Source of the DNA: Crambe crambe
Lineage: Eukaryota > Porifera > Demospongiae > Poecilosclerida > Crambeidae
Assembly: GCA_963924555.1 (NCBI GenBank)
Contig: OZ004582.1
Coordinates: forward strand, 3,224,001 to 3,288,000
Length of the DNA: 64,000 bases
Direction of reading: 5' to 3'
Position numbers and translations under genes: made by a program. The notes under the pieces are model-generated. The model saw only the letters and a list, made by a program, of their open reading frames with translations. It did no database searches and had not been told where the DNA came from. Below are positions 1-9,389 of this stretch, one piece after another; the stretch's first letter is position 1; each line of letters opens with the position of its first letter.

Positions 1-781
1 GCAGGGTCTTGTTCAGACTCTCTTCTATAGACAATGAAATATGATGCAGCACTGATAATCAGATTCTGTCTAACTCATAACTGTTGTAGAAGTCCCCCCC
101 CCCCCCCCCCCAAGCTAGCTAAATGTTCCAATTTACCCGATTGCAGTGTATATAATTATGCCAGGAAAAAATATTCAATTGGTGCGCTATTGGAGTGTGA
201 AATTAATATCAATGGTATTTTGGCGCCATTATTAGAGTGGCACCTTGTTGATAGAACAAAATTTTGATGTTGACCAACAACTGGACGTTTCCATACTGAT
301 TACAGGCTTGGAATTAGGACACTGTAGATCCTCATCCAATGCCTTAGCGAAATAATACTTCAAGGACTTCAACAGCCGTGCCTACTTCCCCCTAATCACA
401 CCCAGTACCCTTTGGAATAAACTGTGCCCACTTGGTGCAGCAAAAAATGTAAACAAGCGTAGTTTTTACAGTTTAGCTCTATTTGAGCTTGTGGATCTGA
501 GAGAAAATTATTAGTAAGTAGATCAGTAGATCTTGGTCTGATAATTAGCTAGCTCTGGTGATAGAGGGGTGCTCGAGCCCCCTGAGCCCCTCCCTAAGCA
601 CCAAAACTGCACTTTAATTAATTTTTTTTATTCGAATATACTGTCATCCAGGAAACTTGAATATGTGACCGGCTCTGGGAAAACCCTCCGTCCGGTGCAA
701 AAATCAATTATCAGATATGAGCACGTTTAGTTGGCAGTGCCAAAATTTGGCTAAAAATTTTTTTAAGCATAAATGACAACT
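1..781. other. Non-coding stretch, nothing recognised
   Basis: No reading frame here resembles a protein I recognise on either strand. Apart from one long cytosine run I see no structured repeat. The only frame of any length (plus, 34-267) runs straight through the homopolymer and is probably chance. Confidence 0.6.
94..111. repeat. 18-nt poly-C run
   Basis: An uninterrupted run of 18 cytosines. Such runs are unstable and prone to assembly error, so its exact length should not be trusted. Confidence 0.95.
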
Positions 782-1352
782 ATGATCCTTGAATAAAGCA
801 CAGATGAAGTTTGGAGCTCAGACTACAAAGGCTTCAAATGAAGCGCTAAAGTTAGCTAGTCAGCCATTGAAGCTTCGTGCACGGAGATTCTAGTCAGGCT
901 GAAATTCATTGAACTTTAGGCAGGCTTTCCAGCTTATACGCTGGGAAATATGAACTTACTAAGCTATCTGCGCTACCTTCGGTACCTTACTTCTCTTCTC
1001 GGAGCTTTGGTTGGACCTTTCTCGAGCCAAAAGGCAAGAAACTAGCTTCATAGCTTTGAAATTTGCGCAATAAAGAGCCAAAGGGCCATAGATAATAAAT
1101 TTTACCATAACAAAATTTTTTTAATTTTCACCGGATGGAGCGTTATTAGCGTTATTGTTTTTTCGAGAAAAGCTGACTAAGCAACGTGAACATTATTTCC
1201 GGACATGCCCGTGGACTAGTAAATTGACGGTGGGTGGGGTTTCGAACTGTAGTTAGTAAGAAGCTAGTTTCTTGTCTTTTGGCTCGAGAAAGGTCCAACC
1301 AAAGCTCCGAGAAGAGAACCAAGGTACCGAAGGTAGCGCAGATAGCTTACTA
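782..1352. mobile_element. Foldback (inverted-repeat) element, copy A
   Basis: Two 92-bp arms, 957-1048 and 1261-1352, are reverse complements of one another with only a few mismatches. They share the landmarks CGCTACCTTCGGTACC and CTTTCTCGAGCCAAAAG. They are separated by about 210 bp. Sequence to the left (782-890) and one arm recur, in the opposite orientation, at 27908-28210. That marks this as a dispersed repeat and not a one-off hairpin. No coding capacity is seen. I could not define a target-site duplication, so the outer limits are approximate. Confidence 0.75.
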
Positions 1353-1375
1353 CCAAATTATTAACCTCCGGTTGT

Positions 1376-2530
1376 TTGACAATTAAGCTGGTCTCCTTTT
1401 AGAAAATTCCTTGCAGGCATTTTGTTACCCTCCTGTCGAATTAGATTCTACTCACAGCCATTTTGGTTAACCTCCTGTTGGATTATGTTCTGAGGTACCC
1501 ATTTGACTCCAAAATTCCTCACAGCCATTTCTTTAAACCTTAGATTCTATGCTCCTGAGGTATTGTTTGACAAGCTGGTCTCCAAGGAACCATTTTGGTT
1601 CCTTAAAAAATTCCTCACAGCCATTTTTGTTAACCTCCTTATTGGATTGGATTCTGTGTTCCTGAGGTACCAAGGAACCATTTTGGTTCCTTTAAAAATT
1701 CCTCACAGCCATTTTTGTTAACCTCCTGTTGGATTAGTAGATTTATGCTGTTTGATAAGCTGGTCTCCAAGGAACCCTTTGGAAAATTCCTCACAGCCAA
1801 ATTATTAACCTCCAGTTGAATTATCCTGGAGGTATTGTTTGACAAGCTGGTCTCCTTTTAGAAAATTCCTCGCAGCCATTTTGTTACCCTCCTGTCGAAT
1901 TAGATTGTACGTCACTGAGGTACCGTTTGACAAGCTGGTCTCCAAGGAACCATTTTGTTCCTTTAAAAATTCCTCACAGCCATTTCTTTAGTCTCCAAGG
2001 AACCATTTTGGTTCCTTAAAAAAAGCCATTTTTGTTATTCCTGAGGTACCAAGGAACCATTTTGGTTCCTTTAGAAAATTCCTCACAACCAAATTTGTCA
2101 ACCTCCTGCTGTAGTAGATTCTATGCTCCTGTTTGACAAGCTAGTCTCCAAGGAACCCTTTGGAAAATTCCTCACAGCCAAAATTAATTATTAACCTCCG
2201 GTTGAATTATCCTTGAGGTATTGTTTGACAAGCTGGTCTCTTTTAGAAAATTCCTCGCAGGCATTTTGTTACCCTCTTGTCGAATTAGATTCTACGTCAC
2301 TGAAATACCGTTTGACAAGCTGGTCTCGAAGGAACCATTTTGTTGGATTAGATTCTATGTTCCTGAGGTACCCATTTGTCTCCATGGAACCATTTTGATT
2401 CCTTTAAAAATTCCTCACAGCCATTTCTTTAAACCTTAGATTCTATGCTCCTGAGGTATTATTTGACAAGCTGGTCTAAAATGGTTCCTTAAAAAATTCC
2501 TCACAGCTATGTTCCTGAGTACCTCAGGAT
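1376..2530. repeat. Long-period degenerate tandem array
   Basis: The phrase TTTGACAAGCTGGTCTCC, with small variants, occurs near 1376, 1566, 1747, 1836, 1925, 2130, 2223, 2308 and 2462. It alternates with TTCCTCACAGCCATTTT and with AAGGAACCATTTTGGTTCC. Spacing is irregular, about 85-200 bp, as expected from unequal exchange among a basic unit near 90 bp. At the right end (about 2508-2560) the end of the unit appears in inverted orientation. Short reading frames inside the array share the repeat and are not real genes. Confidence 0.85.
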
Positions 2531-2724
2531 CATAAAATCTAATTCAACAGGATGTTAATAAGTGACTGTGGACCAAAAATGGCCGGTGCCTTGGAGACAT
2601 CCCTGAGGCAAACCTACATGTATTACATGTTAATCTTAGGCACTGAGTATTGGAGCTGCTGTTCTTTGTATCTATTTTTGTTTGTATCAATTTTTGTTTG
2701 TATCAATTTTTAGTGTCATGAATC

Positions 2725-4680
2725 GTGAAAAGTGTGAAATATCTGAGGAACTACTTCCTTATAGAAAATTCTTTCGTGATATCAATGAGCCAAAGTATGA
2801 TTTCAAATCTGGGCTCAAAACGGTACGAAAAAGAAAAGCTCTACATCATGAGTCTCCTTCAAGGAAGATACCTAGTGTTAGTTCAAACATACATAATGTA
2901 TTATGTTGATGATAGATGAATTACATCTAACTGTTATCCTGTAGCTAGAAACCAAGCAGTCTCTAATCATAAACTTTACTGCATGCTTTGCTGTGGAGTC
3001 TGCAAGCACACTATGTTGAAGAATTGATTCATGATTCAGACCACGTTATGGAAGACCTTGAAGCATTAGCAGCTCAATAGGAATTTCGTGGATGAAGACA
3101 CCATTCATTCTTTCACATACTTTATCTCCTGGCCAGTGGACAGATGGCATAGTATTTTCATCCAGACCACAGAGCTGCTCTTCATGTAAATCAGATGTAA
3201 TTGGAAGTTCCATTTCTCTTCCACTTATCATGGAACGAAATATCTGCACTGCATTAGGTATACATATTGTACTATAGTTTATTTATTTGTAACTATATTT
3301 TTTTAATAGTTTATACTTGGACATGCTCCAATACTGAATACAGCCTTGTTAGCTATTATGATGGATCTGATGATGCTATACTTAATATGGGTATATTTCT
3401 TATCTCTTATGGTGTTATAAGAGCATATATGCATCATTTTCTACAAGCCGGGTATGTTGTAATAGACAATAGCTACCGCTATAAGTGATTCCGATTCTTT
3501 AGGTGCCCTATGTATACCTTCCATAATTTGCTGGCAGCTATGCACTTACTACTTAAATTTATTGGATATTGATTATTCTACTGGTTTCATCTGCCCAAAG
3601 TGTGGCAAAGAGCCTAGAATAATAATTGTGTGTGATGCTACATCTTTAGCATTTCGCAGAGAACTTCTACCGACCAAGGATAGACACTCTCCTGCTAGTG
3701 CTGAGCATTCTGTTTTGAATGGATGGTATGGTAATATAAGTACATGTCACCATTGATCATCTAGAAACTGTAAGAGATTACAGCATAGCAGGATCTCGAG
3801 GCTGTAGATGCATGTAGAAAGTTTGCTAGACCATTTTGACCACTGTTGTTTATTATAGTTCTATGCAGATCGAGTATTTATTAATGATAACCAATGTCGT
3901 CTACTTCTAAAAAGATATGCTTGTACATCTACTGACAGAAATGAACTAGCTAGATATCTTTATTCAGACTTGGAGCATTTATTGAAACTTCTGAAGATGC
4001 ATTGTCCTGTTTTAGCAAACTTAATAGATTATCAAGGAAAATGCATTCCATGTATTTCTACATATGCTGCATTGCTTAAAGATCTATCAGCTTCTACCCC
4101 TGTGTGCGCCCTTTTGATACCCCTTCCAGAAGTTACTAGCTTGGTGAATGATATTTGTGATCGATAAATGGAAATTTTTGCAAGAAAATGTTCCTTTTCT
4201 ATATGACCTATTTTATGCACTTGGACTAAATATTGTTTCTCTCCCAGTTGAATTCCGGCCTGTCATTAAGGAGCTTGTACGCAGGGCAGAATTTCCATTT
4301 CAAAACACACCTGTACATCCCTGTGTTTGTGCTGGGTCAGCTGCCGGTCATGTATACAAATTAGATAATCAGCAAGATAAAGTGTGCACAAAAGCTTATC
4401 GTGGCCACCCTTCCCTTCTTCCAGGAATATTTACCATTTTCTGTTCCCATGGTGTGTGACCAATATTATACTGATAAGTCATGGCCATTCTATTCTTACA
4501 GCACTTGAATGTATTGTTTATGACAATGCCTGTGGATTACATGCTTACTGTCTCAACAGAGACCCTAACTTCTTTAAAAACACTAGGTTTTTAGTGGATA
4601 GGTTTCATTATAGTAATCACACAGGTAAAACTGTATACGCATGTAGTTTATCATCAAAGTTGTACAATCAACCTACCTGA
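2725..4680 (+). pseudogene. KDZ-superfamily-like transposase, spliced and decayed
   Basis: Successive plus-strand pieces read in the order expected of Kyakuja-Dileera-Zisupton type transposases. They are a Cys-containing N-terminal segment (3092-3277), a piece with YYDGSDDAILNMG and YMHHFL (3267-3488), a piece with FICPKCGKEPRIIIVCDATSL (3562-3756), a helical piece (about 3850-4167), then PSLLPGIFTIFCSHGV (to 4459) and VYDNACGLHAYCLNRDP plus LVDRFHYSNHTG (to 4680). The last two lie in different frames. The stretch that normally separates the CxHG motif from the DNAC motif is missing, so the gene is broken or internally deleted. Two AATAAA-type signals sit just downstream near 4712-4726. The same fold occurs in host HMGXB3-like genes, but the lesions favour a transposon. 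The assignment comes from motif memory only. Confidence 0.6.
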
Positions 4681-4777
4681 AAATCTCTGTAAAACATTTT
4701 CCTTCACTACCATAATAAACAATAAAGATCTTGTTTGAGGAGAAAAAAAAGAGAGAATATAAATGGTTCATAGTTAA

Positions 4778-5378
4778 TTAAGAAATCAGCCATGGATTGG
4801 TTGATAAGGCTGTACTCGATCGTTCACCATAGTCAAACAGTAATTCTTCCCCCTTCTTAATCCTTCTACTTGCATGAAGTACTAAATGGGGTAGGCCCTT
4901 GAAATCATAGACTTTAGTATGAAGATTAGGTGCAGCCCGACAATGGTTAAGACGTCCCAGCCTACCATCCTCTTTGGTAGCATCGACACTGTAAATATAA
5001 GAGTAAATAGCTAAAGATAATACAGTAAATGTTGTACCTACCAATGCATTTTTCTTTTATATTTAAAAAAATATATGTATGATCCCATATTAAGAGTGTC
5101 ATATTCTTTCTCACGGAGGGTTCCCTCTTCCTCAGTGAGAAGATCTCCTGATATTGGCTCTCCTCTTGTGAAGGGCCTTGTGGTAATAATGCCTCGCCCT
5201 TTTCCTTTTATTTTAACTATTTTTAAGCCTTCCCTTTCATTTTCAGGGGTTATTCTTTCTTGGACACTTGTAACCTAGAAAAAAGACAGGTTTATGTCCA
5301 ACTGTAGCTATACAACAGGTTTCATAATCTATACCTTGCTAACCTTTTTTGAAATCACCTCGTTACTGGCTTGATTCC
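4778..5378 (-). CDS. KMT5A-like SET-domain exons (histone lysine methyltransferase type)
   Basis: Two minus-strand exons, 5274-5042 and 4988-4778, flank a 53-bp GT..AG intron (4989-5041). Joining them restores a cysteine codon at the junction, just before VDATKEDGRLGRL. The first exon carries GLKIVKIKGKGRGIITTRPF, the N-terminal SET signature. The second carries PHLVLHASRRIKKGEELLFDYGERS, which is close to the KMT5A/SETD8 class that monomethylates H4K20. A small exon at 5378-5345 may precede them in phase. Two oddities suggest decay or divergence. The usual GRLINHS reads GRLNHC, missing one Ile codon and with Cys for Ser. About four residues are also absent after TRGE, where a xEYxG stretch is expected. 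It ends in a clean stop at 4778, converging on the KDZ-like gene. Confidence 0.72.
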
Positions 5379-5404
5379 TGCATTTAATATAAATAGTGAT
5401 GCAT

Positions 5405-6097
5405 CATGGTACCAACTTCCACATGTTGAGCAAGCTATCCATTTGACAATCACGGAGTTCCTCGACCATGCATTGTCTAGCTCAACGCATGACACATATC
5501 TCATTCCAAACACACACTGGCATATTTTTCTCAATTGTCACTAAAATTAATGATAATAGCAATCTTATTCCATAATAATAGACGTTCTTACATGGAGTAG
5601 AATCCATTGGAATGAGTGGACATATGTGGTTCATTGTTCTTGATTCTGGTGCAAACTTAACCCACATAATATGCACACTTGGCAGTACACTGGACTCTAT
5701 GGGGCATGGCTCTACCAACAACTCGTACATCTCATCATAATGATATTCCACATGTTGTTGGATAGCTAGCCCTAAAGCTGTAGCCAAAAATTGTATTTGA
5801 AGCAGTCCTAAAAGGTATGTTGGGAAATGTTATCTCAAAATCAAGAGTAGAGTTTCAGAGAGGAAAGTGCATAGACTGACAGAGATGTGGTCTATCATAT
5901 TATTTTTAATGCAAATACATACCTGAATAAGAACCATTATACGCTGTTTGTAGTGTTTCATTCTGAAGAATGTACCGTAACAGTTCTTTGATATCACTGG
6001 TTGCTGGTTTGCATTCAAATATTTTTATTGTAGAAGCTACTGCTGCTATGAATTGGTGAGCTGTGCCAATGTCTTCAATTACAAAATGAATGATCAT
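5405..6097 (-). CDS. Upstream exons of the SET gene: OTU-like segment and PHD-like cysteines
   Basis: Exon 6097-5923 ends at a consensus donor (GTATGT). Exon 5807-5592 begins after an AG, and the 115-bp intron between them (5808-5922) splices in phase to give GSYSGLLQIQFLATALG. The join reads like the second half of an OTU-type cysteine protease: ALGLAIQQHVEYHYDEMYEL, then HIMWVKF and NHICPLIP, where the His would be the catalytic one. The matching N-terminal motif, normally DGxC, reads GTAHQF, so the catalytic Cys appears lost. Farther on, about 5540-5405, one frame shows IVKWIACSTCGSWYHD, a PHD-finger-like Cys pattern. The frame joining that segment to the others is not resolved. The OTU call is tentative. 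Confidence 0.42.
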
Positions 6098-6286
6098 GAT
6101 GTAGCTTTAAGAGCTTTGGTTTCATCTCCAAATAAACAGATACAGTTGATTTACTTAAACTTGCAACTAGACTTCTGAAAGCATACTGTATGGTGGAGTA
6201 GTGATACACAACCACAAAACTTCACACCTTTGCATTATGTTGCATGATGTAATAATAGTCCTGCAAGAAAATTTGAATTTCTTAGT

Positions 6287-7253
6287 ATGGCATCTGCTCA
6301 ACCTCAGAGAACATCACCTTACTCAGAAGAACTTCGATGGAGAGTAATATATCAGGTTTATGGATTAAGTCCGACATACAGACAAATAGCTAGGAATTTG
6401 AATATAGATGTATCTACAGTATGCAGGATTGTTCGAAGGTTTGAAGAAACTGGAAATGTTAGTAAGAGAGTTCACCCAAGAGGATATAATCATCACCTGA
6501 GAGAGTTAACTATGTATGATGAGTATTTTATAATGGAACTAGTAACAGAAAAACCGGGTATTATTATATCTTCGAGAAATACAAGCTGAAGTGTATAAGA
6601 TGACAGGTACTGATATTTCAACCTCTACAATTTGTAATTTTTTGCATAAGAGTGGATTTACACATCGGAAACTTAATAGAATAGCGGGACAGAGGAATGA
6701 CCTCTTAAGGTCTCAGTTTATGTTTGACATTTCTATCTTTCCATCAGAAATGTTAGTCTTTTTGGATGAGAGTGGCACTGACCGTAGAGATGCACTTTGC
6801 TGATATGGCTATAGTTTAAGGAGGAAACCTGCTAAAGCACTAAGTATGCTTCCTAGAGGGAATCATTTTTCTGCCATTGCAGCCATGTGTTCAGAGGGTG
6901 TGCTTGCATGCAAAGTAGTTGAAGGAGCAGTAAATGCAGAAACGTTTGAAACTTTCTTGTCCATTGAGCTCTCCTCTGAACTATTTCCATTTGATGGAGT
7001 TAATCCTAGAAGTATTGTTGTCATGGATAATGCTTCTATTCACCATGTAGATAAAGTGGTTGAATTTCTAGAAGACCTTGGTGTTCTAGTGTATTTTCTC
7101 CCCCCTTATAGCCCAGATTTCAATCCAATTGAAGAGCTTTTTTCTAAAGTGAAATATGTCATGAAAGCTAATGAAGTTTATATGGAAGATCAATTGGATA
7201 GAACACTCTGGATATTTATAGATAGGTGTGTATTTATTGGATCAAAAAAGTGA
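6287..7253 (+). pseudogene. Tc1/mariner-IS630-type transposase, broken
   Basis: The N-terminal part (6287-6589) is a helix-turn-helix repeat region with SPTYRQIARNLNIDVSTVCRI. The DDE domain follows: LVFLDESGTDRRD (first Asp), SIVVMDNASIHH (second Asp) and PPYSPDFNPIEELF (Glu). There are 34 residues between the last two, a DD34E spacing. A frameshift lies near 6555-6590, where the frame carrying LYLREIQAEVY picks up. An in-frame TGA sits at 6801-6803. The end after 7210 loses similarity to the family. Terminal inverted repeats were not found by eye. Confidence 0.82.
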
Positions 7254-7786: not shown

Positions 7787-7945
7787 GAATCCTCATGCTG
7801 TTCAATTATTCCCTTCTGAGAGTTGCACTTGCCCTTCAACTAAGAGATGAAATCATAAACCTGACTCAACTGCGATGTAATGTACGGTCTAGAGTAGACA
7901 AGAAGTCAGGAAGGAAAGCTCCAAGGCCGGAGGCCCAGGATTGTA
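7787..7945 (+). pseudogene. C-terminal fragment of a MULE/SWIM transposase, plus-strand copy
   Basis: In one frame GNPHAVQLFPSESCTCPST resembles the first half of a SWIM zinc finger (CxC). After a disruption another frame reads INLTQLRCNVRSRVDKKSG. The same LTQLR-N-RSR tail occurs twice on the minus strand at 8212-8421. The second half of the SWIM finger (CxH) is missing between the two, so this is a deleted fragment of a second MULE copy in opposite orientation. Confidence 0.5.
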
Positions 7946-7959
7946 TTCTTTTGATGTAC

Positions 7960-8057
7960 TTGAGGGCTTGTTTAGCTGGGTGCCGTGAGCACAATTGCTT
8001 AGCTTGCTTACAAGGGCACTTCTTTGTAATGGTGCAGCGATTGGTGCAGGTACACAT
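7960..8057 (-). pseudogene. CXC (tesmin/TSO1-like) cysteine motif fragment
   Basis: The minus-strand frame reads CTCTNRCTITKKCPCKQAKQ and then LCS. The spacing CxCx3Cx5CxCx6C matches CXC/CRC motifs, which bind DNA and also occur near the C-termini of transposon proteins. It lies just downstream of the minus-strand MULE and may be its C-terminal end, but the connection is broken. Confidence 0.5.
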
Positions 8058-8249
8058 AACATCATCTGTGTATAATTATCAAAATATCTGGATTTCTTTG
8101 TTTGGTTCATACAATCTTCCTCACTAGCACTCCCCAGTTCATCCAAGATTTTCTGTGCTGTAGGCTTGCAATAATAATGTGCATAAAAATAATTATAAAT
8201 TATAGTATTACCTATTTGAACATCATTTGGACGAGGCTTCTTTCTTCCA

Positions 8250-8399
8250 CCTTTCTGGATCTTGTATTCTTTCGCAGCTGTGTAAAGTTTCTTTTCAATT
8301 GTTCATACCAACAGAGAGCTTTTTTCTCCTTTCTGGATCTTGTATTCTTTTGCAGCTGTGTAAAGTTTCTTTTCAATTGTTCATACCAACAGAGAGCTT
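8250..8399. repeat. 78-bp tandem duplication inside the MULE tail
   Basis: Positions 8250-8321 and 8328-8399 are near-identical; the only difference I see is CGCAG versus TGCAG. The period of 78 bp is 26 codons, so both copies stay open on the minus strand, each encoding a WYEQLKRNFTQL and NTRSRK block. Confidence 0.9.
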
Positions 8400-9389
8400 G
8401 GCTGCTACAATGTGGTAGCAATCACTTGTGGATGCGTTTGCTTTGGAAACAGTGTCACCACACGGGTGGTACCAGACAATCCTTTCACATTGAACACATG
8501 CAGCTTGCAATTGAAAGTGATATTATTAGCATCCAGTATAAGCTGAGCCTTGGCTTCAGTGGAGAGTGATCTTCATTGATGCTTGGTTCAGGAACAACAT
8601 TCTCCTTCAGTACATATGTATATATGACAGAACATGCGTTGTGTTACGATAATTATAGCAAAGCAGGCAAAGACATGCATTACTTTTTCTTCAAATTGCG
8701 ATCTAGAAATGTTACCATCTCTTATGCTCTGTACAATTTCATCTGGTGTACCTGTTGGTATGTATTCCAAATTGCATGGATCAACAACAAGGGACTTGTA
8801 TTCAGGTGCAAGAGTGTATCGTCCTAATTGAGCGAATCCCCTCTTTATCTCATTGCAGTAGAAGGCTTATAACTGATACAATGAAAGGACAACACAATCA
8901 ACAGGGTCTTCTTTCCATTCCTGGAGATCCTTCAGCACTCTGCATGCAAATAACATCACATTCAATTATATCTTACCACACAGAAAGTACCTGTTCAACC
9001 CTTCTGATTGGTTGTTGGTTACACCACTGTACGGATTGTACATATTCTTTTCCTCAAGAGCTCACATCAGGATGAAAGTCATGCATGTAGTATTGTTCAA
9101 AAGCAGCATCCCGTTTCGTTTTAAATTCAACCAGTTTCTTCTCATAACTGTCAGCTGTTGATAGGTGGAAAAGCTCCTTAACATCATTCACATATATTGC
9201 AATATCTGAAGAAGGGGCACCATGTTTGCGACATCACGTACGGATATCTCTGAATTGTGGGCATTTCTGAGTTAATTGCTTTAGTTGTGGCTTTCTATAG
9301 GACATGTGGTTTTCTTCAATGATGGTATTCTATTGACGCATTCCTTAAACATTTCTTGGTGAGTAACATTGAATTTGCGCTCATGGATC

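Follow-up and report, generated by a model that had tools for sequence, protein, structure and literature searches.

Transposons are usually viewed as targets of chromatin silencing, and a stretch of DNA from the sponge Crambe crambe raises the question of whether one of them brings a histone methyltransferase of its own. The stretch, hereafter the window (64 kb; G000:C3:3224001-3288000, on contig C3 of a 143-Mb genome in 119 contigs), holds KDZ-like transposase exons on one strand and a gene with a KMT5A-like SET domain on the other, and the original prediction was that the two convergent genes form one composite element. Here we show that a KDZ transposase gene and a gene for a chromatin-type protein form a recurring two-gene unit, flanked in the best copy of the window's own lineage by inverted subterminal arrays. 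We read the window as a dead copy of a two-gene DNA transposon of the KDZ (Kyakuja-Dileera-Zisupton) superfamily, whose second gene would supply an anti-silencing or chromatin-preparing factor, and we put the probability of this reading at about 0.7.

The whole genome was searched with the transposase and SET sequences of the window and then with those of type B; all genome match counts are lower bounds. In what follows, A to D denote lineages or types, C with a number denotes contigs and L with a number denotes fetched loci. The transposase family occupies at least 14 places in the genome, one of them a 34-residue match at C3:1959567 and the others as listed.

Lineage A: the window; L010 (C3:3.21 Mb); L009 (contig C4).
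Lineage B: L011 and L012 (contig C1); L013 (contig C6); L018 (contig C17), in which one transposase exon is itself inverted.
Lineage C: L015 (contig C10); L016, L017, L019 and L020 (contig C18).
Outside A, B and C: L014 (contig C19).

At 8 of the 14 places a KMT5A-type SET gene lies tail to tail with the transposase and within 2.6 kb of it: three of three A copies, four of four B copies and L014. The pair proposed for the window thus recurs elsewhere in the same arrangement, which supports a composite element. By chance, about 0.02 of 13 loci would be expected to lie within 3 kb of a SET place, and 8 do; the adjacency is not chance. No SET match stands beside the transposase in any of the five lineage C loci, and there is none within 67 kb of the 34-residue fragment. 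Canonical KDZ loci, which number 27 after clustering of 54 matches, have no SET match within 20 kb (0 of 27; the nearest is about 60 kb away), so the link to SET belongs to the branch that includes A, B and L014.

The window locus consists of the following parts, its introns being placed by reading frame and homology, not by transcripts.

661..1352, no strand: unrelated insertion with inverted ends that removes the outer edge of the array; matches L026 and L027.
1372..2513, plus strand: subterminal tandem array on the transposase side, oriented by its core; matches the L010 and L009 arrays.
2718..2906, plus strand: remnant of the first transposase-gene exon, beginning MNREKCEISEEL; kept in L010; read by translation.
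3502..3726, plus strand: transposase exon with CPKCG and CDATSLAFRR; homologous to the B and C copies.
3859..4459, plus strand: transposase exons in two overlapping frames, from the genome-wide protein search and translation.
4501..4680, plus strand: transposase exon YDNACGLHAYCLNRDPNFF...VDRFHYSNH, with an altered end; Pfam KDZ, 16.6 bits.
4477..4646, no strand: interval in which about 1.3 kb, net, has been deleted compared with L009.
4778..4996, minus strand: C-terminal exon of the SET domain (NHCRAAPN ... ELLFDYG), with the stop at 4778; Pfam SET, and KMT5A in the PDB.
5041..5274, minus strand: N-terminal exon of the SET domain, without 9 bp (3 residues) that L009 and L010 have.
5355..5537, minus strand: PHD-finger remnant of the same gene as SET; 13.6 bits (cut-off 24).
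5611..6150, minus strand: OTU-protease remnant of the same gene as SET; OTU matches in relatives fall below the cut-off.

Translation from 2718 to 4680 bears out the transposase-like exons and their strand as first described, and the minus-strand SET gene with its stop at 4778 stands likewise. The tail-to-tail adjacency also holds, and in B the two stop codons are separated by 11 bp (L011, L012 and L013) or 8 bp (L018). The gap of about 100 bp between the two genes does not hold as a feature of the element: positions 4477-4646 of the window comprise 169 bases against about 1.5 kb in L009, the last transposase exon and a spacer having gone, so that the gap reflects decay. That last exon of the family, missing from the window, is found in B, C and L009. 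The SET gene is real but larger than had been noted, with no start near 5274 and with PHD and OTU remnants continuing on the minus strand to about 6150. On its KDZ side the window element reaches left to the array at 1372-2513, the only array that it retains, where the array core AAGCTGGTCTC has seven exact matches, all on the plus strand; there is none on the minus strand across the window. Stretches of the insertion beside this array are 96-98% identical to L026 and L027, and its inverted arms lie at 957-1052 and 1257-1352.

The KDZ-like character of the transposase was part of the original prediction. On its own, the window's transposase exon scores below the Pfam KDZ cut-off of 26.6 bits, but the B transposase reaches 35.5 bits against PF18758 (model positions 76-217) with a query joined mainly from the exons of L013, on contig C6, and containing some letters of the contig C1 copy where L013 is broken; this places the family in the KDZ superfamily. 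MDATSLSFR-, YDNAC- and NSEVVEQ-type motifs, the putative DDE-type catalytic residues, recur in the A, B and C alignment rows, YDNA being absent from the C row as typed. In Pfam, a C-type transposase piece without its last exons gave no KDZ match, and scans of pieces from these loci listed no Harbinger or MuDR transposase family. Transposase relatives were also sought by pattern in GTDB contigs (32 matches, none confirmed) and in IMG/VR (326 matches, none confirmed); because these are prokaryote genomes and viral contigs, the null result says little about animals.

SET forms the 3′ end of a larger gene whose parts run in the order OTU, PHD, Ulp1-like stretch (in B) and SET. Strand and order, not a transcript, suggest that these parts would form one protein. 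The order of OTU followed by PHD recurs in A, B and C, with an Ulp1-like piece after them in B and C; in lineage A, no Ulp1-like stretch was seen between PHD and SET. The OTU of a C-type relative matched OTUD1 in the PDB (E 7e-5), and the GDGNCL part of OTU, lost in the window, is kept in L010. The whole second gene is intact in no single B copy, and its pieces are distributed as follows.

L018: OTU, PHD and Ulp1-like pieces, with a damaged SET.
L011 and L012: Ulp1-like and SET pieces.
L013: PHD, Ulp1-like and SET pieces.

The two SET exons of the window, when joined, score 58 bits against Pfam SET (cut-off 22.4). Their best PDB relatives are KMT5A/SETD8 structures (126 bits), followed by 4ldg (71.5 bits) and MLL/HRX (47 bits), in agreement with the KMT5A likeness first proposed. 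In KMT5A itself, the Y334F substitution moves the enzyme from mono- to dimethylation. The window reads ELLFDYG, with phenylalanine at the position of Tyr334, and so departs from the YDYG of the mono-methylating enzyme; the same phenylalanine is present in a fragment at L021 and in the D-type SET. YDYG is kept in the B copies L011-L013, of which L013 has an open frame across both SET exons, and L009 and L010 have lost the stretch around this position. With phenylalanine in place of Tyr334, the product of the SET domain may differ. The top PDB match of the window SET, 3F9W, is the Y334F mutant, according to an excerpt of PMC3529403. Methylation of histone H4 lysine 20 (H4K20) by the element's SET is a putative activity, proposed from this likeness.

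The window query found 19 SET places and the B query added contig C17, for a lower bound of 20 (contigs C15 and C20, matched by the B query only, were left out). These comprise 8 paired genes, 2 A-type fragments (contig C21), 5 D-type genes, L023, L036 (which is L014-like) and 3 distant matches. L023 is likely to be the host KMT5A, as judged by SET identity and by an RRSSRK motif that we take to be a KMT5A feature; A-type SETs are 46% identical to the L023 SET and B-type SETs 45-48%, by exon. The two fragments on contig C21 (L021 4641-4844 and L022 5038-5240) derive from the 3′ part of an A-type SET gene and have no transposase match, and that of L021 is nearly identical to the window.

The extent of the element is best seen in L010, where AAGCTGGTCTC has two exact plus-strand matches outside the SET gene and nine exact minus-strand matches outside the transposase, with no other in 10 kb. 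Repeats enclosing both genes, as a composite element would have, are therefore present in outline, in the form of arrays that lie outside both. The target-site duplications that should accompany them were sought and not found. In lineage C, the copy at C18:0.91 Mb has both genes, head to head, bracketed by inverted arrays. The SET-side array edge of L010 (about 3205/3206) abuts a repeat, other copies of which (L029 and L030) have no array, and this junction also speaks for the element. Ends were sought by self-alignment, by flank comparison and in array-free relatives, and no copy has both ends clean. Zisupton elements have terminal inverted repeats, and Kyakuja elements have CA..TG ends and no such repeats. 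For comparison, excerpts of PMC12730594 give target-site duplications of 8 bp for Zisupton and 7 bp for two Kyakuja families.

Several further observations concern repeats. An exact direct repeat of 608 bp (1720-2327 and 2444-3051) lies immediately beyond the L010 element on its SET side. An array with a period of 138 bp lies next to the B transposase in L018 (401-1404), and its relatives are partly inverted pairs about 12-18 kb apart (contigs C10, C11 and C16). We considered the inverted array pair on contig C11 as an element and rejected it, as it is a large palindrome in which no KDZ or SET gene was recognized among open reading frames inspected by eye. An insertion in L012 (3744-5580; ends CAGG...CCTG, flanks AATAT) was likewise rejected, being a nested unrelated element.

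The B pairs occur at three unlinked sites, on contigs C1, C6 and C17, and their matches end at different points. The C copies have long common flanks, several of which include an Arm-repeat gene, and are for the most part segmental duplicates. (Some genes look like those of animals: besides the KMT5A-like SET, there is an Arm repeat above its cut-off, and there are weak Roc and COR-A matches below theirs.) In all, we count about five independent paired loci: A, three in B and the one on contig C19. A stronger argument than this count comes from divergence. Between A and B, identity is 42% for the transposase and 38% for SET, so that the pairing looks older than the split between them; the C and B transposases are 48% identical.

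Lineage C is where the association with SET ends. At its five loci, an OTU match lies on the opposite strand upstream of the transposase, about 4-5 kb away in four and 14 kb away in the fifth; one of these loci (C18:0.91 Mb) also shows PHD and Ulp1-like pieces, as does L045. Neither the window nor the B SET query, run over the whole genome, matched contigs C18 and C10. KDZ-like copies that lack a SET gene would speak against a composite element, as would repeats closing between the two genes. The former are present as these five C loci, with their head-to-head OTU gene, and are absent from A and B; the latter occur in L014. Together they narrow the claim to a single branch of the family and do not break it. 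We infer that the branch or branches from which A, B and L014 descend took up SET from a KMT5A-like gene, or that C lost it. L045 itself (C18:3782001-3788000) holds an OTU-PHD-Ulp1-like gene at 1272-4693, followed by a C-type array; the 6 kb fetched contain no match to the transposase or to SET. In the C18 copy joined from L044 and L019, a central segment of the OTU gene (8042-8281) is on the other strand from the rest of it; L045 keeps the order.

A number of findings weigh against our reading, several of them concerning how many insertions there are. L009 is collinear with C3:3.209-3.219 Mb, which is the L010 region, except for about 4.1 kb and the far SET-side flank, which makes it a probable allele or duplicate of L010. 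A 438-bp flank, 91% identical between L010 and the window copy, resembles a repeat also present in L012; given both relationships, lineage A may go back to a single insertion. On the SET side, L011 and L012 stay 99% identical beyond the element, as far as the sequence was fetched, and are counted once. No target-site duplication or clean terminal inverted repeat was found in L010, L009, L018, L012, L013 or the C18 copies. The arrays also occur apart from the genes: that of A is found at C3:2.48 Mb (L031), where 3.5 kb contain neither a transposase nor a SET match, that of L018 is found at many places without being exclusive to the pair, and DNA related to the 5′ end of B (about 79-82% identical) stands at L034 315-1091 (C1:5.018 Mb), in 3.2 kb free of transposase and SET protein matches.

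Other such findings concern the genes. The gene order of C is opposite to that of A and B, head to head and not tail to tail, and in L014 transposase and SET are separated by a long inverted repeat that is in part related to the C arrays, which speaks against a simple element at that locus. Every A and B copy is broken in at least one gene. Pairwise ratios of non-synonymous to synonymous substitution (dN/dS) in B are 0.61-0.76 for the transposase and 0.24-0.58 for SET (the L018 rows are partly misaligned), which indicates weak constraint on the recent copies; the C transposase gives 0.41-0.81 and the A SET 0.60-1.63. The accessory domains score below their Pfam cut-offs: OTU at 18.4-22.5 bits in relatives (cut-off 23.3), PHD at 16.3-21.8 bits in L044, L018 and L045 and at 13.6 bits in the window (cut-off 24) and the Ulp1-like stretch of B at 15.4 bits in joined pieces of L012 (cut-off 20.7). 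Single open reading frames of L014, L018 and L044 gave no Pfam match to Ulp1. A SET tree of 13 rows did not join the paired SETs, for which it needed two changes; they formed one group in 2% of bootstrap trees, and long branches were met. The tree is too weak to place A, B and L014, and its strongly supported branches are compatible with one origin. Finally, the anti-silencing role of the second gene is one that we infer.

Taken by itself, the window offers just adjacency and shared decay, and a transposon inserted beside an unrelated SET gene would explain both; recurrence of the pair refutes this, and such a coincidence is now scarcely credible. A more serious contender is that two separate mobile or duplicated genes, once neighbours, were copied together by segmental duplication and not by transposition. 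The signs of segmental or allelic duplication in L011/L012, in the C18 copies and in L009, L010 and the window all fit that account, as do the lack of a target-site duplication, the different gene order in C and the arrays without genes. It does not readily accommodate B pairs on contigs C1, C6 and C17 whose matches end at different points, stop codons only 8-11 bp apart, inverted arrays outside both genes in L010 and at C18, or an OTU gene beside the transposase in all of A, B and C, with transposases as far from that of B as A (42%) and C (48%). We consider co-duplication unlikely.

Under the reading that we prefer, a two-gene KDZ transposon, the first gene would cut and paste the element. 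The second would bind chromatin through its PHD finger, its OTU and Ulp1-like parts would strip the ubiquitin and SUMO marks that recruit silencers, and its SET domain would write H4K20 methylation at or near the element. The outcome would be an element that stays expressible, or one whose excision and repair are easier. H4K20 methylation is linked to compaction and repression and also to active genes, and the composite element might instead carry a SET that acts against its own mobility, as self-limiting repression through H4K20 methylation, or one that acts on non-histone targets. The phenylalanine for Tyr334 in the window and in the D-type SETs, with a product that may differ, is in keeping with this alternative; OTU and Ulp1-like domains, being of the eraser type, would fit better with the removal of silencing marks. 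We regard a self-limiting or non-histone SET as possible, if on balance doubtful. A bolder extension of the two-gene reading, which we offer as a long shot, is that a KDZ lineage has assembled a single chromatin editor from several enzymes, namely a deubiquitinase, a deSUMOylase and an H4K20 methyltransferase, together with a reader. The A-type change from tyrosine to phenylalanine, in the window and the L021 fragment, could then yield H4K20me2 with no need for host enzymes; this mark attracts factors of origin licensing and break repair, and transposition could in this way be tied to replication or repair.

Transposons with epigenetic enzymes have precedents. Excerpts of Kojima 2025 (PMC12730594) describe fungal KDZ elements that carry TET/JBP, which share with the sponge element a transposase superfamily and an accessory epigenetic enzyme; the sponge element differs in having a KMT5A-type SET with OTU, PHD and Ulp1-like parts and no DNA dioxygenase. 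The same excerpts, referring to Repbase Reports 2014, mention SET genes in HarbingerS and MuDR of Phytophthora. These too are DNA transposons with a SET histone methyltransferase, although of other transposase superfamilies, and the comparison is with that brief description. In SETMAR/Metnase, as portrayed in part of PMC12062965, a SET domain is also joined to a DNA-transposon transposase, but as a primate mariner-SET fusion, whereas here SET is part of a repeated element and lies in a gene separate from that of the transposase. The giant KDZ and Sola-1 elements of Ectocarpus (PMC12477816, in part) include large KDZ elements and, in a Sola-1 element, a DNA methyltransferase gene encoded on the other strand from the transposase; the terms 'OTU' and 'SET domain', the only domains looked for, are absent from the main text of that source. 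KMT5A/SETD8/PR-Set7 is the closest SET in the PDB and has other N-terminal domains, as well as the tyrosine for which the window has phenylalanine. SET in HarbingerS and MuDR and TET/JBP in KDZ are thus already known; no report of a KDZ element with a KMT5A-type SET was found in one open-access library, among the matches listed.

The two-gene family suggests a transposon that edits the chromatin of its host. One KDZ branch appears to bring along a histone-methyltransferase domain together with a reader and two domains of protease type, and its sister lineage has no SET match. This allows a direct test of whether transposons oppose silencing by placing histone marks. If true, this would be the histone-side parallel to the TET/JBP of fungal KDZ elements. 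There is also a practical consequence: transposon genes can inflate counts of KMT5A-like genes in genomes of this kind, as 8 of the 20 SET places here stand beside a KDZ-like gene.

The D-type SET genes are KMT5A-like and closest to L023; they are found in L024 (4590-5109), L026 (4591-5143), L025, L027 and L035. Those of L024, L025, L026 and L035 have zinc-finger-like N-termini. In L024 and L026, the gene stands head to head with another that is possibly a tyrosine-recombinase gene, by motif, and for which Pfam gave nothing useful; in L026, inverted arrays (3925-4013 and 8840-9227) bracket the SET gene and this neighbour. The D-type group may be a second type of transposon with a SET gene.

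Further along the window, a cysteine-rich stretch on the minus strand (7866-8075; CTNRCTITKKCPCKQAKQLCSRH) resembles a CXC motif and has no Pfam match. Nearer to the element, just past the truncated OTU end, a broken transposase of the Tc1/IS630 type (DDE_3, 92 bits) lies on the plus strand at 6248-7253.

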